From Anarhynchus alexandrinus (lineage: Eukaryota; Chordata; Aves; Charadriiformes; Charadriidae), in NCBI GenBank assembly GCA_008711295.1, contig VUYV01000061.1:2021731-2085730 (forward strand): a stretch of 64,000 bases of DNA, in the 5' to 3' direction. Within the stretch, counting starts at the first letter, position 1. Every line of letters starts with the position of its first letter. The notes under the pieces were generated by a model. That model did no database searches and was not told the DNA's origin. It worked only from the letters and a program-made list of their open reading frames with translations. Below are positions 32,088-59,430 of this stretch, one piece after another. A program made the translations under genes and the position numbers.

Positions 32088-32224
32088 TCAGAGGAGGCGT
32101 CCCAGAAGCCGAGCGTCGGGAGAGTTGCCCCAGGCCACCGGCAGGGCGACGAAGCCCAACTTGCTGTAGAAGCTCAGCTGCTGCCGGTCGGTGGCACTGA
32201 CCTGGCAAAACACTCCCCGAGACC
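32088..32224 (-). CDS. OGA-like last exon
   Basis: Acceptor CCTCCCTTCCAG, then [29 protein letters not shown] and LLGRLL-stop (TGA 32090-32088). Human OGA ends FYSKLGCFEIAK...LGRSL, so the C-terminus is homologous to the last residue. Confidence 0.93.
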
Positions 32225-35200
32225 CTGGAAGGGAGGTGAGAGATCAGGCCTCTGGCACCAGTTGGGGCTGGGGGCCAGTAGTTGGGACCCCCTCCACAAG
32301 GGGGTCAAACCTCTCCGCTGCCCTTTGGCACTGTGTGCCTTCACGTTGCCCTGAGACACGGATCCACGTGTCCCCTGGTGCAAAGGGAGGGCACGGTGCG
32401 TGGGAGCTGGGGCCAGATGGCATCAGAGAGGGGATGGGGCTGAGAGGTGGGGTGCAGGTGGGGCCAGACCCTGGATCTGGGGTGGGCAAGGGAGCAATCG
32501 GGATGGGGTTGTGCTGGATGAAGGGGGCCTCAGCCCGCCCCCCACTCCCCAGCAAGGGGTGGTCATGCTCACCGTTGGCTCTGAGTGCGCTCAGCAGGCA
32601 GATGGCCAGGCTGCGGCTGGCCCCCACGTCCAGCACGTNGTGCCCAGGTCTCGGGGGTACTTGTGCCGTACGGCCGGCAGCCAGCTGCTGTCTCGCTGTT
32701 GCAGGAAGCCTTCAGCGCAGAGCGCTCCGGCTGCGTAGCCGCAGGGACCACCCTCATCCTCCAGCACAAAGGTGTACTCGGGGCTCAGGCTGAGGAAGCT
32801 GCCCAGCAGCCTGACAGCCAGAGCAGGAGCACTGCTGAGCTGCTGCCCTGAGCCCAGCCTGCCCCAGGGAAAGCTCACACCAGCCAACCTCCACCTTCTC
32901 GCCCCAGCAGGACAACATCCCTGCACCCACCGGTCCATCCCTTTGATACCCCCTCCAGCCAAAGCCCTCAGCCTCCTGGCCCCNTTGGCTCTGAGTGCGC
33001 TCAGCAGGCAGATGGCCAGGCTGCGGCTGGCCCCCACGTCCAGCACGTGGGGGGCCGTCCCCAGCTGCACCAGGGAGGGGAAGCGCCGCAGCACAGGCAG
33101 GGGCACAGCCGGTGGCTCTGCGTGGAAGAAGAGCAGTGCTTCCTCCAGGGCATCCTGCAGGCGACAAACACAAGTGAGGAAACACCCTCCATCCCATCCC
33201 TCCCCCCCCNCAGCAGCCTGACAGCCAGAGCAGGAGCACTGCTGAGCTGCTGCCCTGAGCCCAGCCTGCCCCAGGGAAAGCTCACACCAGCCAACCTCCA
33301 CCTTCTCGCCCCAGCAGGACAACATCCCTGCACCCACCGGTCCATCCCTTTGATACCCCCTCCAGCCAAAGCCCTCAGCCTCCTGGCCCCCTCCTGCAAG
33401 GTGAGGCCATGGCCAGCCGTGGTGCAGGCAGAGCTGGTCCCCGCAGGGATGCGAGGAGATGCCCCTGCCTCACACCACGGCCCTGCGTCGCCCTGCTCAT
33501 GGCCGGGCTCAGCACACGCCTGGCAAGAGGGAGCCCCAGAGGAACCACGTCTCACCTGTCACCGAGGAGATCGGGGTGGGCCGCAAGGATCTCTGCGATT
33601 TTGGGGTCGCAGTCCAAACTCTCCCGGCACATTCGGTAAAGCTCTCCCTGGAAGACGCCCAGACCCACCTCAGCCCTGGCTCTGCCTGCCCTGCCCAATC
33701 CCTGCCCCACTGCTGCCCCCTCGGCTGCCTGCCACCCCCGCCACCGGCCCTGCCGCAGCATGGTGTACCAGCAGCTGCCCCAGTTGACCATAAAGACAGA
33801 CTGGAAGTGGGGCTGTGGCTTCCAGCGCATCCCGGCCAGGGGAAGGCATGAAGGTATGTGGTTCAGCCATCCAAGGGCGCTGGCCTCTGCGCCAAGTGAT
33901 GCGCCGTGCACCACCTTCCGCTGGCCTCTGAGGCTCATCGCCACAGCACAGCAACACTTCAAACTGAGAAATTGCCATTCCGGTCAGGCATCCCAGAGCA
34001 GCAGCAGCTGAGGAAACGCCGCTCAGCCCCAGGACGGAGCATGCTCTGAGCAGCCAGAGCGGCAGCGAAACAAATACTGAATCTCAAGTCTCCACAGAGC
34101 ATGTGCAAAGTGGGACATCTCAAAATTTCCTCCCTCTTGGTCAGATTTGAGTTTGCTGCTGCTCACAGGATCAGCGAAAAGAACCTCCCGATAAAAGCTT
34201 TGCTTCTCAAAGGAAAGGCCGCCCTGCTCGCTGGTGGACAAGGGCAGCACAGCGCCCTTCTGAGCGCCGTCCCCGCAACGGGCTGAAGTGCTGAGCTGGA
34301 TTTTTCTCTGGAAGTTTCACTGGACGCAGACATCCAGCTTGTTAAAGTTTAGCCTGAGCAGATGAAATCTGACAAGAGGCAGTCGAAAACAAGCTCTTGC
34401 AATGGGAATTGCTGGCAGCCGCAGCCTGACATTACAATCTGCTCTCATGTGCTTGCAACTCCTCCTCTGCTATTTACAGGCGCTGCAGCTGCGCGTTGCC
34501 GGGTACTGTATTTAGCAGGGATGCGCCGTTGTGTCCATGATGGCTGGATTTGCAGCGTTAGCACTTCCTTTAGCTTGGAGAGGGCAGCGGGGTGAGGGAG
34601 CGGGGTGTTCGCCGCAGGCTGTGTGTTACATAGGGAATCCAGGGCTCTGCTGGATTTGGCAGCAGTTTAACTTGTGTGTCCACCCACCTCCAAATTCTCT
34701 CTTTCCCTCCCCATCCCACCAAACTGCTGGGATGTCAAACAAAGCGGTGTGGGCAAGCAGGCAGACAGAGGCTGCTGCCTCTCTAGTGGGGAATCATTCT
34801 GTAAACTGGATGAGTTTTGAACAAGGGAGTGATTTGGAGATGAACCTCAACACGCTCAGGCAGTGCCCTGAGCTGCAGACTGATGAAGGTTGCAGGAGGT
34901 CGCCATCCAGACTTGTCCTGTTCTGCATCTTTCCCAGCACCTGCTCGCGGCCACCGCTGGAGATCAGCGCTGGGGGTGCTCCGGAGATCGCCCTCGCAGC
35001 CTGGCGACCCCAAGTCTCTGCCAGTTTCCCTGTGGCTGTGCCTGCCGCTCACTTCTGAGCCGGGTCTCCCTCCCCTGCCGCTGGCTGCCAGGAGGGGCTC
35101 TGCCCAGGCACTTGTTGCAGGGGGGCAGGTGATGGTCTTTGCCGAGGCCGCTGGCCACAACACCCGCTGTCCATCCCAGGGGGCTCACATGCTGCTGGAC

Positions 35201-38200
35201 ACAGCCCCAGGTGACCTGCCCCAGGCTGGCCTGCTCTTACCAGGGGCTGGACCTCAGAGGTCCCCTCCAACCTGCATCACCCTGCGCTGTGAGCTCAGCC
35301 CCGGGGTCAGCAGCAGACGAGCACGTAACTCGTTAGCACACGTACAACACAGGCCATGCAAAGGGGAGCTCCGGCCTGAGCGGAGCGCGTCACCCCTTCG
35401 GGCCGCGGCTCTCACCTTGTCCAGGGGCAGCAGCGGGCGCAGGAGGTACAGCTGGCTGGACGGGAAGAGCGGAGGTGGGTGGTAGAAGAGGTCATAGCTG
35501 TTCCCCACGGGCAGCAGTGCCTGGAAGAGATATGTTCCATCAAGGAGCAGGTTGTCCTGGCTCCAAACCTTGTCCTGGAGGGAGCAGGAGGAGGGTCCCT
35601 CCGAGGCACCCTAAACCGCGGGAGCTGCAGCCAAGGTGCAGAGGCCCGGGGCAGCTCTGCCTTCCCAAGCTTGCAGCAATCCAACGGCAGGGCCAGGAAC
35701 AGCAGCTGGGATCCTGGCTTCCCAACAGCTCCTTCAGCCCCCACAGATATGGGCATGCTCTCACCTGCAGCTCTCCAAAGAGGCCCCCACGACGTGCCCA
35801 GGGTTCAGCGTCCCCCCCCAGCAGCATTGGGGCAGTGATGCTCTGGCACCCTGGAGGCAGCAGGAGACAGACACATGCGAGGTGAACAAAAACCTGCTGG
35901 GCCAGGGGGAGATCAGCCTCCGCCGCACAGCCACATCACAATCGCACTGGTCACAGCTCCAAGGATCTGCCCCCACAGCCGTGCAGCCCAAGCACAGGAC
36001 CTCGCCTGGGCTTGGGGGGCCAGCCCCATGCATTGGGGTAGCAGCACACCCTCCACAACAGGGCTTGAAGTGGGGGAATAGGGAAAGGTATGATCTTGCC
36101 TCCATGAAAGGTGTAAGGTAAAGACAAAGCTCCTGACTACAGCTGGGAAGCTGCAGCCTGACATGGAGAGCAGCGCCTGTGCCTGTGACAACTTGCCCCG
36201 CATGCAGCTCCTTCCCTGTGGAAGTGGTTCAAGGCACACGGCTGCGTCCCACACTGGACTTGGAGACCTTCTCAGGTTGTCATCTGGTAACACTTCATGG
36301 TTACAGAGGTCACAAGGCCCACAGAGCAACCGAGGAACCCTAAACCAGAGGAACGGGGCCTCCCAAAGTGATGCACAGGCATTCAAAATCCAACCTCACC
36401 TCTGTCATCCAGGGCATTACTGCTCCCAATGGCCCATGGAACCCTTTTACCAGAAAGGTCCTTGGATTAAAAGGGCTGAGGAACCATGCCCTAGAAATAG
36501 GCATTCCCTCTGGACTGCGAGAGATGGTGAAGAGCTGCTCCGATGACTGCCCTGTCCCCAGCACCAGCGCCCCATTGTGCCTCAGTGTGTCAGAGCACGC
36601 AGGGCTGCCACACTTCCCATGGCCATTCCCGCTCTGCTCGGCGGGCAGGGCATGGGAAAGGGCAGCCTGATGGCCAGTGCTGGCTGCTGCTGTGGGGCTG
36701 GAGGTGACAGAGGGCAGCAGCCAGTGCCCCACCACCCAGGTGGGTGCTCCAGGGCAGCACTGGTACTTACAGCCAAAGCAGCTTCCCCAGGTGCCCTTGG
36801 GGTCAGGGTCGCAGAGGAGATGGCCATCTGCAAGGGAGGTGAGGTGGTGAGCACGGGTCAGTGGTGGGGAAGGTGTCAAGGGGAGGTGTGCTCCCAGGAG
36901 AGACCCTGGCACCCCTGGCTGGACACAGGGACCCCAGACCTCTGGGAGGGGGTCCCATACACCTTCACCTCTTTAGGGGCAGAAACAGTGCAGAAACCAC
37001 AGAACAAGCTTCAGATGCCCTGGGTATGCCACAGCGCCCCGGGGGCCCTGTACTTCAACATGCCTGGATTTGGCCAGGGCAAAATATGAATATGAGCTAT
37101 GGGGCCACAGGGCCTGGCTCAGGGCTGGCATCAGCCACGTACCCAGCCAAAAGATGAAGGCACTGGCGGCCAGCAGCATGTTGCGGATGTCCCAGAGGTA
37201 GGGGTGGAGGTCGTAGAGCAGTGCCCGTCCAGCGCTGCTGACGAAGCGGCTGTGCAGGCGGCACGTCTGAGCGCAGAGCAGCTGGAAGGACTGGGCTCGG
37301 CCACGCCACCGCGTGCCCTGTGGACGGACCATGTGTCAGCGCAACTGTGACAGGCACCATCCCGCAGCAGCGTCTGGACCAGTCTTACCCCACAGGCATC
37401 AGATGCCGTGGCCGGGACCCCCACGCTGAGGCTGTTTGCCCGGAGCCACCGAAAGTGCTCCAGGAGATGCTGTGCCTGTGGCCCGTGATGGTAGGGCAGA
37501 TAGAAGAGCTCCACCAGCATCCGCACCTCCTCCAGAGTCAGCGGTGCTGTGGAGTTGGACCTGGCCTCCTTGAGGGTCAGCAGTGCCGTAGGGACAGACC
37601 CAGCCTTCTCTGGAGTCAGCAGTGCTGTGGGGCTGGACCTGGCCTCCTCTGGGGTCACCGGTGTGGGGCTGGACCTAGCCTTCTCTGGGGTCACCAGTGC
37701 TGTGGGGCTGGACCTGGACTCCTCTGGGGTTACTGGAGCTGTGGGGCTGGACCTGGCCTCCTCTGGAGTTAGTGGTGCTGTGGGGCTGGACCTGGCTTCC
37801 TCTGGCATCACCGGTGTGGGGTTGGACCTGACCTCCTCTGGGGTCACCAGTGCTGTGGGGCTGGACCTGGCCTCCTCTGGGGTTACTGGAGCTATGGGGT
37901 TGGAACTGGCCTCCTTGAGGGTCAGTGGTACCATGGGGTCAGACCCAGCCTCCTCTGGGGTCAATGTTGCCACGGGGCCAGGGCTAGCACCAACCTCACC
38001 AGTGAGCAGTGCTGAGGGGCCAGGGCTGGTGCCAACCCCATCAGTGAGTGGTGCTGGGGGGCCAGGGCTGGCACCAGCCTCAGGTCCTGGGGGTGTCTGG
38101 GGCATGTCAGCCCTGGTGGCCTCAGGCTGGGTACTGCTGGAGCGCTGGGGGGGGCTGTCACCCCCTGTCCTGGCATCACTGGTGAGTAGGGGAAGGTTCT

Positions 38201-41200
38201 GGCTGGTGTTGGCCCCATTACTGCAGCACATCACGGTACCTGGGCTGTGGAGGGTCTCAGTAGCCACCGGGGTTCCTGTGTACTGGGCAGTCCCAGCTGT
38301 GCTGGGCAGAGCAGAGGAGGACTCACAGCTTGCTCTGCTCCCTGTGGTGAGCTGGTCCCCATCCCCTGCGGGGCTTTGCTGACCGCTGGCAGAGGTCCTG
38401 CTCCCACTGCCCTTCTCGGACTCCGAAGTCACCTTCATCCTTCCCTCCCCTGGTGCCACGCCGCGGGGCTCAGGGCCATGCTGGTCTGCCCCACTGGGAA
38501 CAGAGTCATGGGGCTGGGGGTCGGGCATGACCTCCTGAACTCCTGCTATGCCGGGCTGCAGCCTCGTTCCTCCCTTGAGGCTGATGCTGGGGTGTCCTTG
38601 GGTCCTTCCTCCTGGCAGAAAGGAGCAAGGGGGCAGCGCCTCTGGCACCTGCATGGAAACTGCTGCCCATGGGGCAGGACAGCCCTGGAGTGGCTGTGCC
38701 AGGAAGCTCCATTTCTGAGCTGTCAGGGACCGGAGTACTGTACTCTGGAGTTTGGGCCTCCGTGGCTGGTGAGGCCAGAGGCAAACAGTGCCAATCTCCA
38801 AGCATGCACCTGGCTGAACTCCCTCTTCCAGAGCCATACCATGGCCCAGGCTCCCACACTGCCAGCCGAGGAGATCCCCTCTGGGATGCAGGCAAGGCAG
38901 GAGCACCCGTGGGGCAGCATGGTGCAATGGACACCCATACCTGCCCACCATGATACACAGAGACCCCGCTGCAGCACCAGCCAGAGCGCCCCATCCAAAG
39001 GGGCAGGGCATGGGGCTCACCCCACCGATCTCCCAGCAGAGCTGGTCCAGCGCTCCTGGGGAGGGGGGTGAGGGATGCTGCATGGGGTGAGGGATGCTGC
39101 ACGGTGTGAGTTCATACCTGGCTCCAAGGCCTGCCGGTTTATCTCGGCCACCCAGTCAAGCAGTGCCAGCTCCAAGGCCTCCTGGGGGCTGTAGCTGCCC
39201 TCCTGTGGGTCTTGGCTGTCCCCTGGAGCTGCCGCAGTCTCCATCCCTAAGGAACTGGAGCTCATCAGCCTGGGCAGCCCCACTCTTTGCTTGATGGAGC
39301 TATCCCGTGCCACACTGAGGGTGGGCAGACTCCCCTCCCTGCCCCAAGGAGATGCCCCCAGGATGGATCCCATGCCCCAGGACGTCGGGTGGTGCCCAGG
39401 GAGGTGAGACACCTCACCCAGGCTGCCATGCATGAAAGCCTACAGGGTCATGGCAAAGACGGGCAGCAATGGCCAGGGCCCTGCCCCGGGTGCACAAGCT
39501 CACTGCCAGCGCTGGGGCCCCACGTACAGAGCTGCCTGGGGTGCGGGGGACAGGTACCTGTGTGATCAGGGTGGGCACAGCTCCCCAGCTCACTCTGAAA
39601 CCAGCTGCCCAATGTGTGTATGGGGATGAAGTTGGCCTGGAGCTCGCAGTTGGGGTTGAGGAGCAGTCCATGGAGCTTGGCCATGAGGCCAGGGGCACGT
39701 CCCGTGTAGGGGCCCAGGAAGACACGTCTGCAGTCATAGTCGTTGGCATACAGGTTGTCCCAGATGACAGGGCGGCGCCGCAGGACACCCTCCACCTCCT
39801 CCAGCAGTGTGGCTGAGAGCTCCTGTGATACCACCTTTGGTCCTGGAGCATCACGGCACAGACACGCGTGGAGCAGCAGGCAGTGCCGTCCATCGCGCAC
39901 ACTCACAACAGGGACATGAACGTCTGGGCACTGAGCGTGCACATGAGGGTCAAGTCACCCCCACCCCCCCCCCCCCCCCCCNGGGCTGCACAGCCCTACA
40001 GAGCCAGGCCAGGCGCTCACCTGTCCAGATGACACCGATCTCTGGGAGCAGCTCCTGGCCGAGGGTCAGCAAGTAGCAGGACTTGCTGGGGCTGGGAGAG
40101 CACAGAGAGCTGCAGTACTCTGGGGAGAGAGCACAGAGCATCCCTTGAGGGGCAGAGAGACTGGGAGAGCAGAGGCTGCCTGGGATCAATGGATAGGGGC
40201 TGGGGAGATACACAGTGCAGGGAATAGAGCATGCACTGCAGCCGAGTCCTGTACTGGTCCCGACATCTCCAGGACTCCTGCAGGAGCATGAGGGGGCTGG
40301 GGGGAGCCATGGAGGCTGTCAGGACAGTCAGCTCTCAGCGGACACAGGTGCTGGGTGCAGCCAGCCGAAGGGCACCTCGGTCTGCTGTGGGGTACCGTGG
40401 CTGGCCAAGCACCCGGCTCCCAGGGATGGGGTGGCTGGGGCTGCCCGGCTGCAGCTGGTACCTGTAGGGCAGAAGAGGAAGACGGAGGGTTGACCCAGCT
40501 CCTGGTACACCTCGTTGGCCACAGACGCCTGAGCCTGCGCCAGGGAGGGGAAGACGTCTCTGTCAGCCTGGCACATGCAGGGGTCGATGTCGTCGAAGAG
40601 CAGCGCGAAGGAGCGGCACCCCATGGCAGCCACCTGCGGGCATGGGCACGGGCTGCTAGGATCCCTGGGCAGCAGAGAGAAAGGAGGCAGCAAGCCCAAG
40701 ACGAGCCCCTGCCGCCTGGGCCCCGTAAGGACAGCAGAGGTCTGGGGTTCCTGGACAGATGGGGCGGGCAGAGCAGCCCTCACCGTGTCCCCCATGCCTG
40801 CCCAGGGGATGCCACGCACAGCCCCATGGCCACAGCCAACCTCGCTCCAAGCCCATAGGGCAAACCCACTGTGCCGGAGGCTCTTTACCCTCCCTGGGGA
40901 CCGCAGGCTCAGCACCAGCCTGCACCGGCCTCTGGTGCCGCCCAGCAAGTTCTGGGGCTTGGCTGGTCCCTCTCCTGTCCCCAGCGCTGCCCGCTAGCAG
41001 TCAGGCATCCACGGAGCCCTCGTCTCTCTCTCTGCCACCGGGCACCCCACAGGGCTGCTCCCTGATGGGGGTTTACAGCCCCACACCAGCCTTTGGGGTG
41101 GACATGGGGCCCACCCACAAGCATGCGTGCCCCTCGCCTGGGGGTGGTGGGATGAAGGAATGGCCCACGGTACCTGCCTGAGTTTTTGCTGCAGCAGGAG

Positions 41201-44200
41201 CCGATCCCCGGCACTTGAAAACACCATGTCCTGGCCAGCAGAAATGGCGAAAATGAACTCCACACCCTGCTCTTGGGCAGCTTCGATGAGAGACCGCATG
41301 CGGGCTGGGGACAAAGCAGAAGGGGTGCTGTGAGCGCTGGGAGGCAAGGGATGGTGGGAGACAAGGGATGGAGGGAGAGGGAACCACAGTGGCCTGAAAG
41401 GAAGGAGCTGAGGGCATCGGGACGCATGAGAGAGCATCTGGAGGGGAGACACCCAGGGGAGACAGTTCCCAGTCCCTTGGGACACAGAGGGCTCTCCACA
41501 GGGGTCTGTGGGCCCTGGCACATTAGAGCATGTTGCCAGAGACCCACGTGTGGAGCTCCCCATGCTGGGTGGGCTCCAAGGTGATTCCATGTGATGGGCA
41601 GGGTCTGAGGAGGGTCCTTGTACAGGGCAGCATCTGGGGGTCTCCTTGCACTAGGCAGGGCCTGTGGGGCTGCCTGAAATGGGCAGGTTCCTGGCGGCAA
41701 GAGCAGTAACAGCCAGTCTGACCCTGGCTGAGATGCAGACCATGCTTCACCCTTGAGGACCCGGGACGCCTGCAGCCCACCCGTGCTGGGGCCCAGCAGA
41801 GCCGCTACCTGCCTCATGTTCTGTGTAGGGCTCTCGCCAGAGCAGTCGGTGCTTCAGCTCATCCTTGGGCGCGTACATGTAGCAGTTCAGCCCCCAGCGT
41901 TTCAGCCTGTGCAGCAAGGAGAAGGGGTCACCCGAGGCTCCAGATGGGCTCTTTGCAAAGAGCCATCCGGGCAGTTGCCAGCCCGCAACACCAAGAGCTG
42001 CTTTGGCACATGGCTCCCTCTCCTCCCCCAGAGCTGCACCATGTCCTGCAGGCTTCCAGCCTCTTCTCACACAGAGCCCCTCAGAGTGTGGAGCCACAGC
42101 TCTGCCCCTGCACAGGGAGTCCTGCCCTGCCTACTTTTGACGGCCACACGGAGACATAAATTTCACCCGGTGCTCCCAGTGCTGAGCCCAATGATTTGTG
42201 TTGTTTAGGGGCCTCCAGAAAGACAGTGCATCTGGATGAGAAAGTCTCAGAGACCGGCAGGACATTGCCTCCTGGGAGCTGGGTTGAGTTAACACCCTTG
42301 CTGTGGAAAAAGCGGGTGGGAAGGACCAGCTTAGCCTAAAGAGCCTGTTTTAACCACTTGGCAAAGTCCTGTGATGATGAAAAGCTCAATGTCCTAAGGA
42401 ATGGAAGACGGGCGAATGGCCAGAGCAGCCTCTGGGGGAGGAAGGGGGAATCCTTTGGGGAAACTGAGAACAAAATGGCCAACAAGAGAGAGGATGGGGC
42501 TGGAGCCGATGGAGGGAGAAGCTCAGCGGTCTTCTGCTCCATGCGGCCCCCTGAGGGTGCAGGCGTCCCCAGCCCTGGAGTCCAGCTGTGGGGCTCCATC
42601 AGGCCAAACCACCCCTGCAGCTTTGCAGCACCTCTTTCAGGGCTTGCAGTGAGACCTGTGAAAGCACTTAGCACCTTGTGGTTGGTGTGGGTTTCTTTTC
42701 CCTTTCTCACCAGCTATGCTTCTAATTGTGCAATCAAGAACCAAGCTTGTTTGTAGCCCAACCACACAGGCTGCAAGGTTGCCTGTTGTGACAAGTGACT
42801 CTGGATGAAGCAGGTCCAGCAGGAGCAGGACCAGTGGAGGCACCCTGGAGAGCTGGCACCTCACCGCTCCCCCAACCTCAGTGTCCAGGAGTGGGGTGCA
42901 CCTGCCAAGCACAGTCTGGCCTGGGGGACTCAGCCCGGGGTACCATGGCAAACTTGCCCGGGGTACCACGCACACCCAGGGAGCCCTCACTACTGCAGAT
43001 CCCCTCATGTCATCTCCTTGAAAAGCTCATGTCCTGTCTCCAGGATGGCCTGACTCCAGCAACAGTCCCAGCTGTACCATTCCCAGATCATGCCTTGATC
43101 ATTTGAACAGGTCAAGACCTTCAAAGCTATCACTCTGCAATGGTTTTTGCAGCTACTGGGTCTCACTGGGGCTCTCTTGCACTCTTGCACTCTTTTTCTC
43201 TCTCTTCTCCAGTGAGACACCAGCATCGGACACAGGCTGCAGCCTCCTCACAGCTGCTGGGCTGTCCCTTGCCTGCCCTGGTCTCCCTTACCCCACACTG
43301 TGGTCAGACATACCCTGCTATTACCTGCACAGCTCGTGCACAAACGCCTTTTTCTTGGGCTGTGTTAGGTGGCATTTCAATGGAAGGGGGCCCAGAGGAG
43401 GCTGTGTGTTTGCCGCTGGGATGATGTGTGTGCCACATGCCACCGTGGTGTGACACAGACCTCCAGAGGCAGCTCTGAGGCAGCTGCTGTGCACACCCTG
43501 ACATCGAGGCTCACAGACCAGCTCCAAAGAGCCTGTACCCCTCTCTGTTGCACCCATTTAATGTGGGGTCCAGTACTGCCACTGTAACTAGGATTTACCA
43601 AGGTGCAGCATCTGGCATCAGCAGTAACTCTGCTTTAACTGAAGTCCTTTTACAAGGAATTAACAAGCTGCTGGCATTAGAATCACACAATGGTTTGGAT
43701 TGGAAGGGACCTTTAATGATCATTCAGTCCAAACCCCTGCCACATCTTTCACTAGATCATGTTGCTCAACCTGGTCCAACCTGACCTTGAACACTTCCAG
43801 GGTTGGGGCATCCACAGCTTCTCTGGGCAACCTGTTCCAGTGTCTCACTACCCTCACAGTAAAGAATTTCTTCCTTATGTCCAATCTAAATCGACTTTCC
43901 ATTACCCCTTGTCCTGTCACTACAGGACCTGGTAAAAAGTTTGTCCCCATCTTTCTTTATAAGCCCCCTTTACGTATTAAAAGGTGACTATAAAGTCTCC
44001 CCGGAGCCTTCTCTTCTCCAGGCTGAACAACCCCAACTCTCTCAGCCTGTCTTCAAAGGAGAGGTGTTCCAGCCCTTGAATCATTTTTGTGGCTCTCCTC
44101 TGGACCCACTCCAACAGGTCCATGTCTTTCCTGCGCTGAGGACCCCAGAGCTGGATGCAGTACTCAGGTGGGGTCTCACGAGAGTGGAGTAGAGGGGCAG

Positions 44201-47200
44201 AATCACCTCCCTCAACCTCCTGGCCATGCTGCTTCTGATGCAACCCAGGATACGGTTGGCTTTCTGGGCTGCGAGTGCACATTGCCAGCTCGTGTCCAAT
44301 TTTTCACCCACCAGTGCCCCCAAGTCCTTCTCAGCAGGGCTGCTCTCAATCCCTTCGTCCCCCAATCTGTATTGATATTGGGTATTGCCCCGACCCAGGT
44401 GCAGGACTTTGCACTTGGCCTTGTTGAACTTCATGAGATTTTCATGGCCACTCCTCAAGCCTGTTAAGGTCCCTCTGGATGGCATCCCCTCCCTCTAGGT
44501 GTTCAACTGCACCACTCAGCTTGGTGGCATCTGCAAACTTGCTGATGCAACTCAATCCCACTATGTCAATGATGAAGATATTAAATAGTATTGGTCCCAG
44601 TATGGACCCCTGGGGAACACCACTTGTTACTGGTTTCCACTTGGATGTTGAGCCATTGACTGCAACTCTTTGGACACAGCCATCCAGCCAATTCCTTATC
44701 CATCAGCTGTAATATGCATTACTTAGTAATCAACCCTGACTGTAGTTTTGATAGGTTGAACTGGCTGGATGGTCGCACTCAAGGAGTTGCGGTCAACGGC
44801 TCCATGTCCAAGTAGAGACCAGTGATGAGTGGCGTTCCTCAGGGGTCGGTACTGGGACCTGTACTGTTCAACATCTTTGTTGGTGACATGGACAGTGGGG
44901 TAGAGTGCACCCTCAGCAAGTTTGCCAATGACACCAAGCTGTTTGGCGAGTCAGACACGCTGGAGGTGAAAGATTCAATCCAGAGGGACCTGGACAGGCT
45001 GGAGAGGTGGGCCCAAGCCAACCTCATGCAGTTCAACAAGGCCAAGTGCAAGGTCTTACATCTGGGTCGGGGCAATCCCAAGCACAAATACAGGTTGGGT
45101 GGGGAATGGCTGGAGAGCAGCCCTGAGGAGAAGGACCTGGGTGTGCTGATTGACGAGAAGCTCATGAGCCAGCAATGTGCCATCGCAGCCCAAAAGGCCA
45201 ACTGCATCCTGGGCTGCATCAAGAGAAGTGTGATCAGCAGATCAAAGGAGGTGATTCTGCCCCTCTACTCTACTCTCGTGAGACCCCACCTGGAGTACTG
45301 CATCCAGCTCTGGAGTCCCCAACATAAGAAGGACATGGACCTGCTGGAGTGCGTCCAGAGGAGAGCCATGAGGATGATCCGAGGGCTGGAGCACCTCTCC
45401 TATGAGGAGAGGCTGAAAGAGTTGGGGCTGTTCAACCTGGAGAAGAGAAGGCTCCGGGGAGATCTTATTGCGGCCTTCCAGTACCTAAAGGGGGCCTACA
45501 GGAGAGCTGGGGAAGGACTTTTTACTAGGGCATGTAGTGATAGGACAAGGGGGAATGGCTTGAAACTGGAAGAGGGCAGGTTTAGATTGAACATTAGGAA
45601 GAAGTTTTTCACTTTGAGGGTGGTAAGGCACTGGAACAGGTTGCCCAGAGAGGTTGTTGAGGCCCCATCCCTGGAGGTGTTCAAGGCCAGGCTGGACGTG
45701 GCCTTGGGCAACCTGATCTAGTGGGAGGTGTCCCTGCCTATGGCAGGGGGGTTGGAACTCGATGATCTTCAAGGTCCTTTCCAACCTAAACCATTCTATG
45801 ATTCTATGATAATATTGATGCACAGACATTAAAAGGCCTGTCAGAGGAACTCTTTGGGACTGCAAGGTTTTTGTGGAGACCTGCAGGTGGAAAGCCCCAG
45901 GGTGCTGGAAAACGGTGAGTGCTGAAGCAGAGCTTTGGCGAGGAGGGGGGTGGGCAGCAGACCTGGCAAGCGTGAACCCGTGGCAGGACGCTGCGCCTAT
46001 GCAGTTTGTAGGTGACAAAGACTAAGTTGGTAGAGAATAAAGGAGCAAATACAGCACTCAGATGCGGTGATTTGAGCTGGCTGCTAAAAGCTGGGCTTCA
46101 GCAAGCGGTATACTTCTTAATACAGCCAAGCATAAAGTCCTACCTAGGTAAACGAATACAGAAGGTACGTTGTCTGAACTCAGCTTAACAAGCAATTTGT
46201 TGAACATGAGTGTCCTCTGCAATGCCACTGGTAACTCAGCATAACAGAGAGCCCTGGATGAATCACTGCAGAGAGTCAGGTGGGACTAGGGAGATTTGGT
46301 GACCTCTGTGTGGGCTGCAGATGCTGCCAGAGCAGCGACCACAGCGTGGGAAGAACACTGATAAACTAGGGTGAGTCTGTCAAGGAGACACACACACACA
46401 GGTGGAAAGCCTGTGGGCAACAGAGTCTTGGAGCCCAGCCTGCTCATCAACCCAGGGAAAAGGCTCAGCCTGAGAGTGCTCTGGAGGAGCGAAAAGCCAC
46501 ACCCGGCAGTCTGGGACATGGCGGGGTCCAGGGGTGACTCATGGGGACACGCATTTGGGCGAGACAGGAGAGGAAAGCTCTCCAGCTCTCCAGATGCTCC
46601 ACTGCAGTCGGAGCTGAAGGGAAGCAGGTCTGAGAGAGATCAGGGCTTGCCTGCTTCAGGAGACCAGACTGCACTGTCATAAGGCCCTTTCCGGCCTCAA
46701 AAATCACAAATTCCTTCCACAGTCTCCCCAGCAGTCCAAGACTCACTGGAAATTGTCAGGATGGGGCAGACACCTCTCTAGACAGCTCTTTTGGCACTCC
46801 TGTATGAAAGCCATCTGATATATTCATTTATTTTTATTTACTCTCCTTAGTAGATGATGTTTTACATTTTCCCACAATGAACAGACTGAGAAGGACTTCA
46901 TGTACCACACAAGTGTCTCATCTTGTTTCTTTCCAGAGAAGAAAACCACCAATGAACATACTGCTCACATGTGCAAACACATGAACATACATCCCAGTCC
47001 AGTCCTAGACAAGGCCATCGTTAGATCTTCTCATTCCTAATGCACTTTAAAACATCACATCTTGTTTTCCTTCCTGCATGTTTTCCCCAAATTTTCTAAG
47101 CTACATTTTTCTGTATCTGCATCTCTGGTCCCTGAACTATAGTCTTTACTTGAACTTGTGACTGCCCACACTGTCACCAGTGCGCTCTCACAGCATGACC

Positions 47201-50200
47201 AGCACATTTCCCATGCAGTGGGTGGCTGCCAGTGCCATCACCAGCACAGTCACCAGCACATGGCCCTGCTGTCTCTGGCCCACTGCCTGGCCACCACCGG
47301 TGCACTGCCCACGCTGTCACCAGTGCACTTCCCATGCCAAAACCAGTGCACTGCCTGGCCACCACTGGTGCACTGCCCACGCTGTCACCAGCACACTGCC
47401 CATGCTGTGACCAGCACACTCTCCACACCATCCCCAGCGTGCTGCCCATGCAATCACCAGGGCACTACCCACACTGACGGGTGTGCTGACCAGCCCATGA
47501 CCATCGTACTGCCCATGCCAGATGCTCCACGGGAGGCCCTGTGGGGCCCCAGTCTGTTGGTGGCAGGTCTCGTCAGTGCAGCTCATCCCACTGATGGCCA
47601 GCGCATGGGTGCCAGCTGCCAAGAGAGGTCTTTTTCTCTCCTGCACACATCGACTCCCATCCCAATGTGACTCTCACAACCAGCCAGTGACAGATCCTGC
47701 CCACATCCTTCCGTCACAGGGACACATGGTGACACACAGACATACTTGAGGACTCACAAGGACACAAGGGCCACCTCCACACCATGGCAGGGATGGCAGC
47801 CTCAGGCTAAAGTGGTCACCTGTGCCCACGGTGGAGTGTTGTGGGTTTGCTGTGCTATTTCCACTATGATAAGCCCGGCTCCAGAAAGTCTGGGCTGGCT
47901 GGAAGCACCTGCTTGGTGCCCTCACTGGGAGCACAGGGCAGCAGGGATGGTGGCCCCAGGCAGGATGAGCTGGCCACTTGCTGTGGGTGGCAGCGGGCAT
48001 GCAGTGTGCTGTCCTGTGGCCAGTGCACCCACAGGGGCTGGTGCCATGTGGCACTGCCCAGGACTGTGTGGTTCAGAGATGTGGCAATGGGCGCTTGTCC
48101 TGCCAGGTCAGCACCCGAGGTGGGCTTCCAGCCTGCTAAACACCCCCACATTCTCTCCCATGCAGATCTGACTTCTCATTTCCAGCCCCAGTCCCTCCAC
48201 CCGCTCCCTGACACCTCCCCTGCGCATGGGCTGCCGTAACTGACCCGTGCCATGCTGCAGTCAGGGCAGAGCAGCTTTTCTGGTGCCTCCAGAGGCAGCA
48301 CCGTCAGGCTCCAGTAGCCCCCACACTCCTCTCCAAACCTCTCCCAGCTGCCATCGCTCCTCCCGTGGTGCGGGCATCAGTGTCCGACCCGATCCCACCG
48401 ACAGCTCCCGGTGTGTCTGCACCCTCACTGGGGCACCCGTGCCAGCTGTGCAGTGCCAGCACGCAGGGCCTGGTGCCCACCCGGCCCCTTCCGGACCCCA
48501 TCCCCAGACCCCATCCCCTTGGGGTGCCCAGCCCTGGCCCAGGCCCCTCAGCTAAGCACATCTAGCTGCCGCTGGGCTGCGGCGGAGTCCCAGCACCATC
48601 TGCCGGCACAGGGCAGCACAGCCCGCATCTGTCCGGGCATCCTTGGGCTGCCCGTCCATCCCGCAGCCACCACACCCGGGCCCAGGGCAGGGGGAGTCTT
48701 TCCCCAGGCTGGATCCGAGGGTGCAGCAGTGCTGGGACAGAGGGGGCACTGGGAGAAACCCGAGACCCCTTCGCTGCCGTCACCCCGGTGTCCCAAAGGC
48801 AGGCCAGCCCCAGGAGCCTCCCTCCAGCACATTTTCCTCACCGCTCCTGCCTCCGCAGCACTCTGGCTTTCACCTTGTCACTCTGCCACCGGCTAGTACC
48901 TTCAGAGAGGAAAATTCAGGGTACTTGCCATTGAAAGAGAAGTTTCCTCTGTTCCATAGACCATGGCCTCCCGTAGAAACCTGTAAAAGGGGAAAAAAAC
49001 CAACCAAAATGCAGTTGTCAGTAACTGTCTTAAAACAGAATCTCCCTATACTATCCCTAGGTGGCTGCTCTCAAACCCAGAGATCCACCATCTGTCCACC
49101 TCTGGGTACTTCAAGTGTCTGTTATCCTGCTACGGTCTTGCTGGGCATCAGTATTCAAGCAAGCGGTTATAATGTCTGGGGTTCCATCCTTCTCAGAAGG
49201 AGACAGCTGGGAAGAGTTGCACAAGGTAGCACTTAACCTGGGAGAAGAATTTGCACAGTAAAAGCCAAGCCTAGAGGAGACTGCTGAGGGCTGGCTAGGT
49301 TCTAAGGCACTCTAGCATGATTTTGGGGTGCACCAAAGCACAGACCTATTGTACATCCACCCTACAGTTTTCTGCCTGAGGTTTTTCTTCTTTACAGAGA
49401 CCAGCTCTGTGTCTCTTCGCGTCTCTCTGTGTCTGGGTAGTGTCAGGCTTTGTCAAGTAAAGCATCATCACTCCTGTACGGGCCATAAAAGCTGCTCTCT
49501 CTGTCTTAAATCACTGCACAACAAACTGCACCAAAATCACGCTGACACAGCTCTCCCCTGCACCCTGCAAACACAAACCTGCAATGCAGCAGGGCAGGAC
49601 TTTGAGGCAGCATCCCTGTCCCACGGCAAGCTGTTCAGATCCGGAACACACAACCAACCTATGGAGATGCCCACGAGTGCTGGGACTGTGACTCCACATG
49701 ACATTTCACAGGCACCTTGGCTGTCCCTCACTGGAAAACACCATCCCCATAAGCTTGCAAAGGGAAAATCCAGAGAGGGAAAGCACACCGGGGAGCAACC
49801 TTACCAGTTGTCTGCTAACAAAGACACTCATCAATGAGCACCAAGGCTGGCTGCAAGGACATTGCCCTTCCAGAAAGTTCACATCAACAAAACCAGATGC
49901 AGGAACTACAGATCTGGAGTCAGCAAATTCCCAAGTGTTTCTTAACATTTCCACTTCTGCTGCTTGCAGGCTTTAGGTGGTTGTTGGGCACCAGTGTCTG
50001 ACACAAGCTTGAAGCTGCATCTGACAGTCTGCCCTGTGCTCTGTGTGGCAGGGAAGCAGTCTGTGACTGGATATAGCGAGCAGGGGCACTACCGGACATG
50101 CAGCACCCATTCCCCTGTTGGGACCGCTTTCAAGGAAGGGCCCTTCCTATTTCTGCTTGTAGGAAGACCTGGGAGGTGCAGAGTTGTCTGCAAAGCCAGA

Positions 50201-52669
50201 GGGAAAGAATACCCAGTGGAAGGTAAGCCAGTTCACTTGGGGGCAATGGGAGAATAGGCAACTAAATGGGTTTGGAGAGATGCAGATTTGACAGCTTCTT
50301 AAAGAGGAGGTTAAGGGGAACCTGTAAGTGTTCCAGCCCAGACCTGAAATTTAGCAAGAGAAGGATCTTTAGTCACTTCAAGTCTCTGCAAGATCTGGCA
50401 GCTGCAATGTGAAGTCTCGCAGAAAATGCATTACGTCTTGAACAGTGATGGCAATTAGCCATCAAGGCAGCTTCCCAGTTTTGGATGGGCTCTGCATCAT
50501 GGGAAAATTAAATCAGTCAATGCACTTTCTAGCAGACAAAGCCAACAGAAGCAGATATTGAGGGAAGTGAACGCATTCACCGAACTGGGTGGCGCACAAG
50601 GGCAGATCACAATGACTCTGTTAGTCTGGGAGAAAGGACCGGCTCTCAGCACCTGATCCAAGGCCAGCATTGCCCAGGAAAGCGCCCACGTTTCCCCAAA
50701 GCACCTGTGTGGACCGGAGCTGGTCTACCTGGGGGGGACCCCAATGCCCTGCTCCCTTTGGCAGGAGCCCACCCTGCAGCCCTCAACACCAACCTTGGGC
50801 AATGGTGTGTTAGGTGGCACCACAGCACACACCGAACATTACCTTCTTTGCAGGTAGATCTTCTACTCATAGACCCCGGATACTTCCCAGGACTGCCCCC
50901 ATCCCCCCAGTAGATCTTCTACCTGCTTGAACATCACTACATGGTTGTTCCATCTACTTTGAAATAATATATAGTCGCCTTGCTAGCCATGCCCCACCAT
51001 GCATGGGGCCAAATGTGTGGCTACTCAAGGATCCCAGAAAACATTTCACACAAAGAAAGTATTTCCATGATAAATAGATTTTCTGTTTCCCAATCCACAG
51101 GAACTCCTGCTCAGCTCTCAGTGAGGTCCCAAGGGTCCCTGCACAGCATATGCCTGCCAGTGCCTCACTCACACTTTGCTGTGAACTGACACTGCCTTGC
51201 AAGTATGACATTCATGCCCTACACATGCCCTGCCAGCAACAGCTCTGTTGAAAATGCCATCCTAGTGTATTCTGCCCAGTAAACTGGCTTAAATTGTACC
51301 AGCAAAATCCCGTCTGTACCTGCAGCTGCATCTCCAAAGGAGTAATGTTGGTGCTGTTTTTTTGAAGACAGATGGGCATTGATGAGTGCTGCCGTGCATT
51401 TGCACCTCGGCTGTCCCATAGCCCAGATCACTACATCAGTGACCCATCAACACCACTGCTTGCCAAACTCTGGGCCATCTGGGATGTCCCTCAGCAATTT
51501 CCTCACAACCGTTAGCAAAGTCCTGATGAACACATTGGGACGCAAAATCTCTAGGCTCCAAGTGTTCCCTAGCCCCTCATCTGTCCTGTGTGCAAGTCAC
51601 CCAGAGGCATCAGTCCATCCGTGCTCTCTGGCTCCTGCTAGCAATGTCCAGAGTGTCAGGAGGGAGCAGGGGACTCTGTGTAGGACACGCTACTCCTGGC
51701 CTGCCTTGGCCCTGCCACAGCTGTACCCTGCTCAGCAGCCTGCCACCACAGCGCCAGCCTACGTTCCCTGCCAGGGCCTGTGCTACCAGGGTGAGGGATG
51801 CAGCCAGGAGGGATGACCTCCTCCTCCTGGAGTGGCTCTGCTGGCAGCATCTGTGCCCTTCTCTTTCCCACATCAGCTTTCCTATATCAACGATTCTTTC
51901 TGAGTCATATTTCTTTTTACTATCAACTTCCCCATCCCTGCACTTTCTATTTATTTTGTGCTTATTTGCACGGTGCTTTTGCTTCCTCCCAGGCCAGACA
52001 GTAGGCTGTGGGCTCCAGCGGGGTACTGTACTGCCAGGAAAAGTGGAGATGCTTTTGCCTAGTGGGTGCCAGGCCTGGCCCAGCTCCAGAGGTGCCGTGC
52101 TGCAGAAACAGAAGTTGGGGGCGGGGTGGGGGGGGATGGAGAGCAGAAGGACGGGGCTGAGCCATACGGAGCTGCCACAGGAGACCAGGCTCTTCTTGGC
52201 TAGCTCTGGGCATGGCCCAAGGCAGCGTTGCACCGCGGGCAGGGAGGCAGGAGGGGCACACGCCGGGATGCTGCCCCCATGCCCAGGGCAGAGAAAAAAA
52301 CCACACTGCAGCATGCTGGAGCCAAGAGCAGCGGATCCCCATATCCCACTGCGAAGGAGGGTCGGCTGTGCTGGGGTGGCTGCGGGGTGCAGCGGTGCTC
52401 TGGGGACGAGCTGGGGAGCGTCAGCGGGGGGTGTAGGTCCCGTACCCCCGGGCAGAGATAGGGTTCTGTGCAGGGGCCCGGATCCCTGTCTCCCCAATAC
52501 CCGGGCTCCCGGGCGCCGCTCGGATCCCGGCAGCCCTTCCCGGCCCCTGTTCGCTCTGGGTGGACCGGGCCAGCCCCTGCAATGCCCGGGCGGGGCACCG
52601 GCCCCAGCCGCGGCCCCGGAGGGACCTACCTTCCACCACGCCGCAGAGGAAGCGCGGCCGCCCCGCCAT
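32088..52669 (-). CDS. Protein O-GlcNAcase-like gene (divergent OGA paralogue, GH84 + stalk + pseudo-HAT)
   Basis: Predicted glycoside hydrolase family 84 enzyme removing O-GlcNAc from Ser/Thr of intracellular proteins. Exons (minus): 52669-52630, 48980-48929, 41906-41809, 41304-41174, 40633-40462, 40119-40021, 39842-39594, 39246-39118, 38611-37389, 37317-37143, 36827-36771, 35850-35765, 35520-35416, 33647-33556, then two exons scrambled by assembly (32810-32640 and 33154-32986 with 32638-32573), and 32224-32088 (TGA). Phases agree throughout; about 1,060 residues against 916 for human OGA. It follows OGA from start to stop but is much more diverged than vertebrate OGA orthologues are from each other, hence a paralogue. 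Weakest boundary: start of exon 39246. The 36827-36771 exon may be optional. It lies between LOXL3 and DOK1, which I recall as adjacent in human. Confidence 0.92.
32573..33217 (-). CDS. OGA-like pseudo-HAT exons 15 and 16, scrambled by assembly
   Basis: Exon 15 (32810-32640, [20 protein letters not shown] ... PRDLG) and exon 16 (33154-32986 plus an overlapping copy 32638-32573, [13 protein letters not shown] ... [11 protein letters not shown]) appear in the wrong order on the minus strand. Exon 15 also has its first 7 bases repeated at 33217-33211. Its 3' end is lost at the n at 32639. Both match the human OGA acetyltransferase-like domain. The coding content is complete apart from a few bases. 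Confidence 0.85.
32639..33210. other. Assembly gaps and overlapping contig ends
   Basis: Single n at 32639, 32984 and 33210. Bases 32575-32638 equal 32985-33048 (offset 410), and 32804-32983 equal 33211-33390 (offset 407). The two small contigs 32640-32983 and 32985-33209 are therefore placed in swapped order; exchanging them restores the OGA exon order. Confidence 0.88.
33556..33647 (-). CDS. OGA-like exon 14
   Basis: It encodes [20 protein letters not shown] and HPDLLGD, matching human YKICREMYDDG...QPDLIGD. Donor CAG|GTGAGA; it ends with two bases of an Arg codon completed by the next exon at 32810. Confidence 0.9.
35155..35285 (+). mobile_element. Short CR1 3'-end remnant
   Basis: CCCCAGGTGACCTGCCCCAGG followed by GGGGCTGGACCTCAGAGGTCCCCTCCAACC resembles the CR1 terminal 130 bp. 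It is antisense to the OGA-like gene, in intron 13. The rest of this intron (33648-35415) has no gene. Confidence 0.5.
35416..37317 (-). CDS. OGA-like stalk-domain exons 10, 12 and 13
   Basis: Exon 37317-37143 encodes [29 protein letters not shown] and FIFWLG. Exon 35850-35765 encodes [21 protein letters not shown]. Exon 35520-35416 encodes [19 protein letters not shown] and the LRPLLPLDK end. Joining exons 10 and 12 directly gives [20 protein letters not shown], aligned without gap to human WLGC...GDQEPW. The stalk mediates the OGA dimer and shapes the substrate cleft. Confidence 0.9.
36771..36827 (-). CDS. OGA-like 57-nt candidate cassette exon in the stalk
   Basis: Acceptor CTCCCTTGCAG and a perfect-consensus donor T|GTAAGTA. 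Its phase is the same at both ends and it is 57 nt, so it can be included or skipped without frameshift. It adds 19 residues with three cysteines (core [16 protein letters not shown]) exactly where the exon-10/exon-12 join otherwise matches OGA without a gap. Human OGA has no counterpart that I recall. Confidence 0.55.
37389..38611 (-). CDS. OGA-like exon 9: long disordered linker and start of the stalk
   Basis: A 1,223-nt exon (about 408 residues), acceptor TTGCTCCTTTCTGCCAG, donor GGG|GTAAGA. First comes a Ser/Pro/Thr/Gly-rich linker without recognisable fold, then a tandem array of 12-13 residue units, then the conserved [20 protein letters not shown] and HFRWLRANS that open the stalk domain. 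The linker is much longer and different in sequence from that of human OGA. Such linkers are caspase-cleaved in OGA; no clear site was identified here. Confidence 0.88.
37545..37985 (-). repeat. Coding minisatellite in the OGA-like linker
   Basis: About 12 units of 36-39 bp. They encode variants of [13 protein letters not shown] (for example [37 protein letters not shown]). All units are multiples of three, so the frame is kept. The last unit runs without a break into the conserved stalk peptide PLTLEEVR, suggesting that the array grew out of it. Confidence 0.9.
39118..39246 (-). CDS. OGA-like exon 8 (helix before the linker)
   Basis: It encodes [19 protein letters not shown], equivalent to human YSPQMALKLALTEW. 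The 3' end is clear (CCAG|GTATGA). The 5' end is placed at TTCCTTAG|GG because it is the AG that fits the required phase. The frame remains open further upstream to 39433, so the exon could start earlier. Confidence 0.7.
39594..41906 (-). CDS. OGA-like GH84 catalytic-domain exons 3-7
   Basis: Five exons carry the catalytic barrel. Family residues are kept: the substrate-binding Lys in MYAPKDE, the paired catalytic aspartates in [13 protein letters not shown] (D121/D122 by my count), the Tyr in FLFCPTEYC, Trp/Asn/Asp in [13 protein letters not shown], and the Asn in NPNCELQAN. These correspond to human K98, D174/D175, Y219, W278/N280/D285 and N313. The domain ends at IHTLGSWFQ with donor CAGA|GTGAGC. 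No inactivating change was seen, so an active enzyme is expected. Confidence 0.92.
39958..39982. other. Poly-C run ending in an assembly gap (n at 39982)
   Basis: A run of about 20 C ends in n within the OGA-like intron between exons 6 and 7. It is probably a sequencing break; no exon sequence is lost. Confidence 0.8.
43680..44704 (-). mobile_element. CR1 LINE copy, reverse orientation (left arm)
   Basis: The left end is the inverted CR1 3' tail (AATCACACAATGGTTTGG, GGAAGGGACCTTTAATGATC). Minus-strand codons encode the RT C-terminus: [19 protein letters not shown], and [20 protein letters not shown] upstream. Several frameshifts interrupt it. It lies in OGA-like intron 2, sense to that gene. 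Confidence 0.95.
44758..45812 (+). mobile_element. CR1 LINE copy, forward orientation (right arm), open RT frame
   Basis: A 299-codon open frame (44822-45721) encodes the CR1 reverse-transcriptase C-terminal half: [18 protein letters not shown], then [11 protein letters not shown] at the polymerase motif (FADD expected), [14 protein letters not shown] and [19 protein letters not shown]. The 3' tail ATTCTATGATTCTATGAT at 45793-45810 marks a complete CR1 3' end. It is 5'-truncated. It faces the left copy, 50 bp away, making an inverted pair. Confidence 0.96.
45813..48928. other. OGA-like intron 2, 5' part: no gene seen
   Basis: Intronic. It contains a possible degraded LINE end near 46680 (ATAAGGCCCTTTCCGGCC), an AT-rich stretch 46800-47140, a minisatellite (listed separately) and GC-rich sequence up to exon 2. 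The intron's 3' part (41907-43679) likewise shows no gene. Confidence 0.55.
47160..47500. repeat. Minisatellite of CACTGCCCA(C/T)GCTGTCACCAG type
   Basis: About 14 imperfect units of 22-28 bp, such as CACTGCCCACGCTGTCACCAG, CACTGCCTGGCCACCACTGGTG and CACTGCCCATGCTGTGACCAG. It lies in OGA-like intron 2. Confidence 0.85.
48929..48980 (-). CDS. OGA-like exon 2 with GC-AG donor
   Basis: Acceptor TTTTTTTCCCCTTTTACAG, then (G)[16 protein letters not shown] and two bases of a Trp codon. It completes the family signature EGFYGRPW. The only donor that restores the frame and the family spacing to the next exon (LKRWGLN) is TG|GCAAGT, a GC donor. Using the GT three bases downstream gives the wrong phase for the next exon. 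Confidence 0.88.
48981..52629. other. OGA-like intron 1, no gene seen
   Basis: 3.6 kb intron between exons 1 and 2. The sequence is close to unique and moderately AT-rich from 49000 to 51600, then GC-rich. Open frames 51590-52807 plus and 51610-53115 minus extend into the CpG island and look like composition artefacts. Confidence 0.55.
52630..52669 (-). CDS. OGA-like exon 1 (start codon)
   Basis: It encodes [13 protein letters not shown] plus the first base of a Gly codon and ends [18 protein letters not shown] is the start of the GH84 fold in OGA; the long Ser/Ala/Gly-rich leader of human OGA before it is absent. It lies in a CpG island. Confidence 0.9.
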
Positions 52670-52726
52670 ACCCGCGCAGGAGCGGCCCTGCCGGTGCTGG
52701 GGCGGGCGGAGGGGTGCGGGGGAGGG

Positions 52727-58269: not shown

Positions 58270-59430
58270 TCAGGACAGTGTGGGACATGTCCTCCGACGG
58301 CTCTGGAAGCCGAGAGCTCTCCCGTGGGATGCGGAGAGCGCGGCGGAGCGGAGCCAGCCACAGCGGAGAGGCAGCTCCTTCCCCGACCGGCCGCAGCCGG
58401 GGGCGCTGCCCGTCCTCTCGCCGCTCCCGCACCGGCACAAGGCGGAGGCGGCCGCGGGGTGGGGACGATCCCGCTCTCCCTTCCTCGCCCGGCGCCTCCC
58501 TCCTTCCCTCCCCGCCTCCCTTCCTCCCCGCCTCCCTTCCTCCCCGCCCCGACACGTGCGGCCCCGCGCGGCCCCGCCCCGGCCCCGCCCCACGGCGGCG
58601 CGAGCAGTGGCGGCGGCGGGCGGAAGCGCGCGTCGTGCGGCGGCGGCGGCGCGGGATGGACCCGCCGGCCAAGGAGGGGTCGCTCCTGGTGCAGCACAGC
58701 CACAAGTTTGGCACTAAGGTGGCTCTCCGCGGGGCGGGTGGGGGGACCCGGACCGGCACCGGGACTGGGCGGAGGGACGGGCTGGGGCCGGGGCTGGGTC
58801 GGTTTGAGCCGGGCGGGCTCTCTTCCTCCCTCCCGGGGCGCCGGGCGGTCTCCCTACCACTACTCGGGCCGGGCCCGCCGTCCCCGCTGCTCGCCGCCGC
58901 CCCGGTCGGGCGCGCTGCCGGGCCGCGGGCGCCGCCCGGCGATTGGGGAAGTGGGGCCGGGGCTGTGTCGGCCGCCGGCCCCGGGCGGGACGGGGCACCC
59001 GGGCGGGGGGTGGGAGTGGGAGTGGGACCGGTCCGGCGGAGCATCCCGGGCACCCTGGCGGGAGGGAGGCTTTTTGTACCGGCCCGCCGCTGCCCGGTCC
59101 CCGGCCCGGTGTGACCCCGCTCGCTGCCTTGCAGAGGTGGAAGCGGAGCTGGTTCGTGCTGTACCCGGCCAGCCAGCACGGCGTCGCCCGCCTGGAGTTC
59201 TTCGACTGCAAGGAGCCGGCGGCGCCGCCGGAGCGGCTGGGCACCAAGCGGCTGGACAAGACGGTGGTACGGCTGGCCGACTGCACCAGCGTGGGCCCCG
59301 TGGCCGAGAGCGGCCCCCGGGCCGGTACGGCCGTCTTCCGCCTGGAGACCAGCGACAAGAGCTACCTCTTCGCAGCTGACAAGCAGCAGAGCGAGGAGTG
59401 GGTGGCCAAGCTGTGCGAGATCGCCTTCCC
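58270..59430. promoter_or_regulatory. DOK1: CpG-island-like promoter and exon 1-2 region of DOK1
   Basis: CpG-dense block with a CT-rich repeat (CCTCCCTTCCTCCCCGCCTC, 58498-58552) and GC-box-like motifs just upstream of the DOK1 ATG at 58656. It extends through exon 2. Confidence 0.65.

Follow-up and report, generated by a model that had tools for sequence, protein, structure and literature searches.

The analysed window, a stretch of 64,000 nucleotides of contig VUYV01000061.1 (C61) of the Anarhynchus alexandrinus assembly, carries on its minus strand (52669–32088) a stop-free gene of 17 exons that encodes a full-length relative of O-GlcNAcase (OGA), designated here OGA2 (Table 1). The gene is placed between a lysyl-oxidase gene in the position of LOXL3 and DOK1; the name LOXL3 was given from the position beside DOK1 and not from a tree. 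A tblastn search with human OGA produced colinear minus-strand matches from the FLCGVVEG motif (about 52.65 kb) to the C-terminal LGR motif (32.09 kb), and exon-by-exon reading of the splice sites yielded 1073 codons with no in-frame stop. The 17-exon gene following human OGA between these two motifs, described in the first-pass annotation, is therefore present.

Table 1. Features of the window (window positions)
Feature	Position	Strand	Remarks
Lysyl-oxidase domain exons	12014..13765	-	PF01186, four matches over cut-off (C61:2033744-2035495)
OGA2 exon 17	32088..32224	-	terminates in LLGRLL and stop
OGA2 exon 15	32640..32810	-	pseudo-HAT; truncated by N at 32639; misplaced by scaffolding
OGA2 exon 16	32985..33154	-	pseudo-HAT; end duplicated at ~32573-32638
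OGA2 exon 14	33556..33647	-	pseudo-HAT
OGA2 exon 13	35416..35520	-	splice-site reading
OGA2 exon 12	35765..35850	-	stalk arm
OGA2 exon 11	36771..36827	-	57 bp; OGA2-only 19-residue stalk insert (20 letters with shared end codons)
OGA2 exon 10	37143..37317	-	stalk; Leu at human S652, Trp at human W645
OGA2 exon 9	37389..38611	-	linker, with a 39-bp (13-residue) unit repeated ~11 times at 37526-37963, followed by the first part of the stalk
OGA2 exon 8	39118..39246	-	end of catalytic part
OGA2 exon 7	39558..39842	-	WDN..ANDY and NPN motifs (human W278, N280, D285, Y286, N313)
OGA2 exon 6	40021..40119	-	Tyr equivalent to human Y219; Leu at human F223
OGA2 exon 5	40462..40633	-	catalytic Asp pair FALLFDDID (human D174/D175), codons 40594-40589
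OGA2 exon 4	41174..41304	-	splice-site reading
OGA2 exon 3	41809..41906	-	Lys equivalent to human K98 (YAPKDE)
OGA2 exon 2	48929..48980	-	FYGRPW...; GC donor, as in OGA1 of the same genome
OGA2 exon 1	52630..52669	-	no long leader; start identical in condor (P0009)
DOK1	59132..62657	+	tblastn, human DOK1: 59132-59431 (N-terminal part) and 62445-62657 (middle part), 52 and 55% identity

AG acceptors precede exons 2–17, and GT donors follow all exons except 2, 15 and 16: exon 2 has a GC donor, the donor of exon 15 is missing in an assembly gap, and the GT of exon 16 is visible only in a duplicated copy of the exon end. Intron 2 of the conventional OGA gene of the same genome (OGA1) is likewise of the GC-AG type (C11:4677714-4677779), and this shared oddity is thus probably inherited and has been kept since before the OGA1/OGA2 duplication. 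The joins of exons 7, 8 and 9 agree in position with the annotated proteins of gull (P0003) and plover (P0005), which are the nearest to window OGA2 by identity. Exon 11 was located via comparison with the gull and condor proteins; a protein of 1054 residues, lacking this exon, was used for the database, PDB and Pfam searches, the pocket comparison and the trees. Inside intron 2 lies an open frame of 301 codons on the plus strand (44816–45721), which in appearance resembles the reverse transcriptase of a CR1-type LINE. A GC-rich minisatellite (units of ~20/40 bp, 52693–52980) is located immediately upstream of the start codon and could influence the OGA2 promoter.

One part of the gene is disturbed. 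Single Ns at 32639, 32984 and 33210 delimit two small pieces within 32573–33390, where the segment 33211–33390 is repeated at 32804–32983 (180 bp, 100%) and the segment 32985–33048 at 32575–32638 (64 bp, 100%). Exons 15 and 16 stand here in swapped order, and eight residues of the plover, gull and condor proteins are absent from the window. The exactly duplicated ends at single-N joints indicate that the order of the two exons was swapped by a scaffolding error, so that the fault looks like one of the assembly and not of the gene. These gaps, together with the fast evolution described below, could be read as signs of a gene that is unexpressed or decaying in this lineage, but this is improbable, given that the open frame contains no disabling mutation (only assembly gaps), the splice sites are clean where readable, the near relatives gull and plover have identical junctions, and at least 120 bird clusters of the protein exist. 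A retrocopy is ruled out by the 17 exons, which are laid out as in OGA1.

Identity to the human OGA sequence amounts to 53% (182/343) over the catalytic half and 43% (157/367) over the C-terminal half, and among PDB entries the joined protein matches human OGA best (E 5.2e-221). The GH84 domain was detected by PF07555 (NAGidase) with 256 bits against a cut-off of 25, the stalk domain matches chain 5uhk_B (E 1.4e-43), and the pseudo-HAT domain, previously reported as kept, matches 6r45_A (211 residues, “O-GlcNAcase”; E 2.2e-19). OGA2 begins nearly at the GH84 domain and, consequently, appears to carry no obvious signal peptide; the absence of a long N-terminal leader is confirmed. In a structure model of ostrich OGA2 (mean pLDDT 69, with the linker and arm poorly predicted) the best-matched structures were human OGA entries, with TM-scores by target of 0.79–0.89 among the top 35 entries; the model supports an OGA fold and nothing beyond it.

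The profile search of the assembly located PF07555 at two places only, as three stretches in the window on C61 and three on contig C11. The latter belong to a conventional OGA gene at 4,682,280–4,658,740, with 15 colinear matches to dipper OGA1 at 84–100% identity in the 60 kb read, the lower identities occurring where a match overruns an exon end; dipper residues 661–687 were unmatched. With this gene in the same assembly, the case raised by the first-pass annotation, that OGA2 could be the sole conventional OGA of the species, is ruled out and retains practically no probability.

The active site is strongly conserved. The positions corresponding to human K98, D174, D175, Y219, V254, W278, N280, D285, Y286, N313 and W679 are unchanged in all 24 aligned OGA2 rows, and in the window gene every pocket residue checked is kept, which upholds the earlier statement that the catalytic Asp pair and the active-site positions are retained. 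At other sites, G67 is a gap or misaligned in three of the 24 rows, D177 is replaced by Ala in bichir, and W645 by Ser or Thr in both caecilians. We take K98, Y219, W278, N280, D285, Y286, N313 and G67 to be residues of the human OGA pocket. The assignment of D174, D175, F223, V254, W645, W679 and S652 to the pocket or cleft is backed by the available text of papers (including PMC5610315 and PMC12494797), and F223, V254 and W679 are described in the former, as far as its available text goes, as lining the pocket for glycosylated Thr. A wider set of 357 fetched proteins was divided, according to which of 14 reference rows each protein matched with the highest BLASTP score, into 223 OGA2-class and 134 OGA1-class clusters; this replaced a cruder split by score to the window or human protein (165/192), which had assigned several OGA2 rows of fishes to the human group. 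The Asp pair was found in 220 of the 223 OGA2-class clusters (164 by the narrower pattern L.FDD), PTEYC in 218, WDN..ANDY in 219, NPN in 217 and the Lys motif in 202.

Beyond the pocket the two proteins differ systematically, with 23 positions fixed (≥95%) to differing residues in OGA1 and OGA2. All 24 OGA2 rows have Leu at the position of human F223; Leu is present in lamprey too, and may thus be the older state. At the position of human S652, Leu occupies all 24 OGA2 rows and Ser all 22 OGA1 rows covering the site; the available text of PMC12494797 states that S652F alters human OGA.

OGA2 also contains 19 extra residues, with the rough pattern WLDGR.L......GSW..CF.WC, inserted after the stalk helix and ahead of the arm (human residues 665–685 according to the available part of PMC12494797). 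In the window they are encoded by exon 11, with good splice sites, and lie beside the substrate cleft. The insert is present in 21 of the 23 other OGA2 rows, one caecilian and the coelacanth entry lacking it, and in none of the 24 rows of OGA1 and lamprey that span this site. Its pattern occurs in 188/223 OGA2-class clusters and 0/134 OGA1-class clusters; nine of the 35 OGA2-class clusters without it show a clean skip, making alternative splicing or missed annotation possible.

The linker is very different from that of OGA1, as annotated earlier, and evolves rapidly: in four comparisons across vertebrate classes its identity is 10–16% for OGA2 against 68–82% for OGA1. The stretch from the catalytic part to the stalk comprises 405 residues in the window, 448 in gull and 352–495 in the other three neoavian rows, compared with 221–248 in ratites, chicken and crocodilians and 116–184 in ray-finned fishes and the ray, which suggests that the linker repeats grew in neoavian birds. 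When the window protein is aligned with those of gull and plover over the linker minisatellite (37526–37963), gaps correspond to whole 13-residue units. For the five pairs compared, in which the species were not always the same, each of the four regions shows lower conservation in OGA2 than in OGA1; in the GH84 domain of the ray-bird pair, subject to this difference of species, identity is 62% for OGA2 and 90% for OGA1.

A protein search with OGA2 listed, among the best 120 of 1307 matches, only bird entries by name, mostly “protein O-GlcNAcase-like” and with several isoforms per species. The corresponding search with human OGA (best 120 of 2521) listed OGA1 proteins, including those of birds at 87–93% identity to human. 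A shortened OGA2 query, taking proteins up to ~945 residues and leaving most long bird entries outside this length window, matched among the best 120 of 1577 proteins of birds (ostrich, rhea, chicken and others), alligator, crocodile, two caecilians, coelacanth, bichir, paddlefish, gar, bowfin, many teleosts and manta ray, as well as OGA1 proteins of lamprey and some fishes. Chicken and zebrafish OGA2 entries were among the matches listed, as were both copies for Apus apus, Microcaecilia unicolor, coelacanth, Megalops, Chanos and Anguilla. No mammal was named among the matches listed in the two OGA2 searches (best 120 each, the second up to ~945 residues). Turtles, squamates and frogs were likewise missing from these matches, which at this search depth does not demonstrate that they lost the gene. 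OGA2 was apparently lost in mammals; the loss proposed in the first-pass annotation fits this result and the placement of human MGEA5 at the LBX1 locus only, given in a legend in the available part of PMC2446394, but is not thereby proved. Two primate entries named “protein O-GlcNAcase-like,” of slow loris (P0144) and galago (P0216), are 89 and 82% identical to human OGA over the full length and look like extra OGA1 copies, perhaps retrocopies. OGA-like GH84 proteins of Verrucomicrobia and other bacteria (80 of 330 matches retained, L001–L080) share 39–53% identity with a vertebrate OGA in the best segment.

Phylogenetic analysis separated the two classes. In a tree of 48 rows, the 24 OGA2 and 22 OGA1 rows are on opposite sides of one branch (SH-aLRT 100 and 97). 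A rooted quick tree with eight bacterial rows supported OGA2 with SH-aLRT 89 and OGA1 plus lamprey with 93; its outgroup included one wrong-frame ORF (L002, branch 7.25), which was removed with 17 other rows in thinning before the final tree. The resulting careful tree of 38 rows, five of them bacterial, recovered the OGA2 clade, apart from OGA1, at 100/100 and OGA1 with lamprey at 97/92, in line with the search and tree that had been proposed as a check. No lamprey OGA2 was found among the best 120 of 1577 matches. Spanning the ray, ray-finned fishes, coelacanth, caecilians, crocodilians and birds, OGA2 is a paralogue older than the split of living jawed vertebrates, and the annotation as an ancient paralogue is correct. 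Measured by raw BLASTP score, the OGA2 rows of the ray, the coelacanth and several fishes are about as near to human OGA1 as to the window gene; the placement of these rows rests on the tree, the fixed sites and exon 11. The OGA2 branches are long and the tree program warned of long branches meeting, as would be expected of a recent duplication in birds or archosaurs that looks old through fast evolution. Such an origin is scarcely credible, however: forcing eight bird rows, OGA1 and OGA2 alike, into one group lowers the likelihood by 325 log units (p-AU 3.4e-7), the stalk exon is shared with the ray and ray-finned fishes, and two further sites link OGA2 to the bacterial outgroup. The position of human R84 is Trp in 23/24 OGA2 rows and that of Y101 is Leu in 24/24, and six of the seven bacterial rows agree at each site; lamprey has Arg and Ser, respectively. 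These states common to OGA2 and bacteria indicate that OGA2 retains some that were lost by OGA1.

Contig C11 likewise carries a lysyl-oxidase gene (5.29 Mb), at a distance of 0.6 Mb from OGA1, and two further lysyl-oxidase loci occur on C83 and C30, contigs with no PF07555 match; in the 60 kb around OGA1, no match to human NPM3 was found. Four Lbx/Tlx paralogons were described by Wotton et al. (2008; PMC2446394), the available part of which groups Mgea5 and Loxl4 with Lbx1, lists Mgea2 with Lbx2/Tlx2-Loxl3-Dok1 in chicken and teleosts, and assigns a “further Mgea gene” to chicken chromosome 4, together with Aup1-Htra2-Loxl3. A Gallus OGA2 cluster sits on a 90.9-Mb contig. Since lysyl-oxidase genes also occupy contigs free of OGA, the pairing of blocks, and with it the whole-genome-duplication reading, relies mainly on this published paralogon as far as its available part describes it, and not on the two marker families used here. 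The early vertebrate genome duplications are the most likely origin of OGA2.

The unchanged pocket suggests that OGA2 hydrolyzes GlcNAc by the same substrate-assisted mechanism as OGA1, and its faster evolution, stalk insert and cleft differences suggest an altered substrate choice or regulation. The same features, the unrelated linker among them, together with the change of W645 in caecilians, would also suit a protein that keeps the pocket but acts mainly as a regulator or scaffold, or on another GlcNAc-bearing target, with little bulk O-GlcNAcase activity. This is unlikely, as the fixation of 11 pocket positions in all 24 rows suggests selection for catalysis on GlcNAc. Judging from sequence, OGA2 most likely functions as a second O-GlcNAcase whose substrate selection is altered; the probability that it is an intact ancient OGA paralogue, likely acting as a second nucleocytoplasmic O-GlcNAc hydrolase with altered substrate choice, is put at about 0.78.

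On this reading OGA2 arose, most likely from the early genome duplications, before the living jawed vertebrates diverged, and was kept in the ray, ray-finned fishes, coelacanth, caecilians, crocodilians and birds but apparently lost in mammals. In its protein product, the Asp pair of the GH84 barrel would remove O-GlcNAc through substrate-assisted catalysis, and the active site would be covered, as it is in human OGA, by the stalk of the other subunit of a presumed dimer; the pseudo-HAT domain is retained at the C terminus. The range of glycoproteins accepted would be changed by the 19-residue exon, situated where the stalk helix ends and immediately ahead of the arm, and by the Leu residues at the cleft positions F223 and S652. 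The broader proposition that the first jawed vertebrates had two active O-GlcNAcases, that OGA2 acts on its own substrate set and that mammals are secondarily single-enzyme stands at even odds. If it is true, most O-GlcNAc research rests on a lineage, the mammals, that has secondarily come down to a single enzyme. Chicken and zebrafish have OGA2 entries, so OGA knockouts in these species may be buffered by OGA2, and inhibitors directed against the shared pocket may, given its identity, hit both enzymes. The OGA2 exon beside the substrate cleft offers a natural experiment on OGA substrate choice. The second OGA, which the first-pass annotation discussed in terms of O-GlcNAc cycling in birds, is also present in fishes, coelacanth, caecilians and crocodilians.

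A second vertebrate OGA does go beyond the single-gene view, as held in a 2025 structural paper whose available text derives vertebrate OGA isoforms from a single gene (PMC12494797), but the gene itself is already known, both from databases as “O-GlcNAcase-like” and from the 2008 report of “Mgea2” in chicken and teleosts (PMC2446394, available part). OGA2 is the same protein as the “protein O-GlcNAcase-like” models of NCBI and UniRef, automatic names for which the listing states no distinct subfamily. It shares the locus of “Mgea2” and is by inference the same gene, which in the available part of Wotton et al. (2008; PMC2446394) serves as a locus marker, with no active-site, exon or functional analysis there. 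In the literature searched, which includes few subscription papers, the name “mgea2” appears in PMC2446394 only and no report of OGA2 activity or of the OGA2-only exon was found. The present analysis adds a broader distribution of OGA2 across jawed vertebrates, a rooted tree, a comparison of pocket and cleft, and the OGA2-only exon. Compared with OGA (MGEA5, NCOAT; GH84), OGA2 has the same order of GH84, linker, stalk and pseudo-HAT, the same exon layout and the same catalytic residues, but differs in its short N terminus, unrelated linker, 19-residue stalk exon, 23 near-fixed substitutions and locus. Trichoplax adhaerens is likewise an animal with two functional OGA genes, but its second OGA, according to the available text of PMC12494797, is a short form without the C-terminal domain, unlike OGA2.
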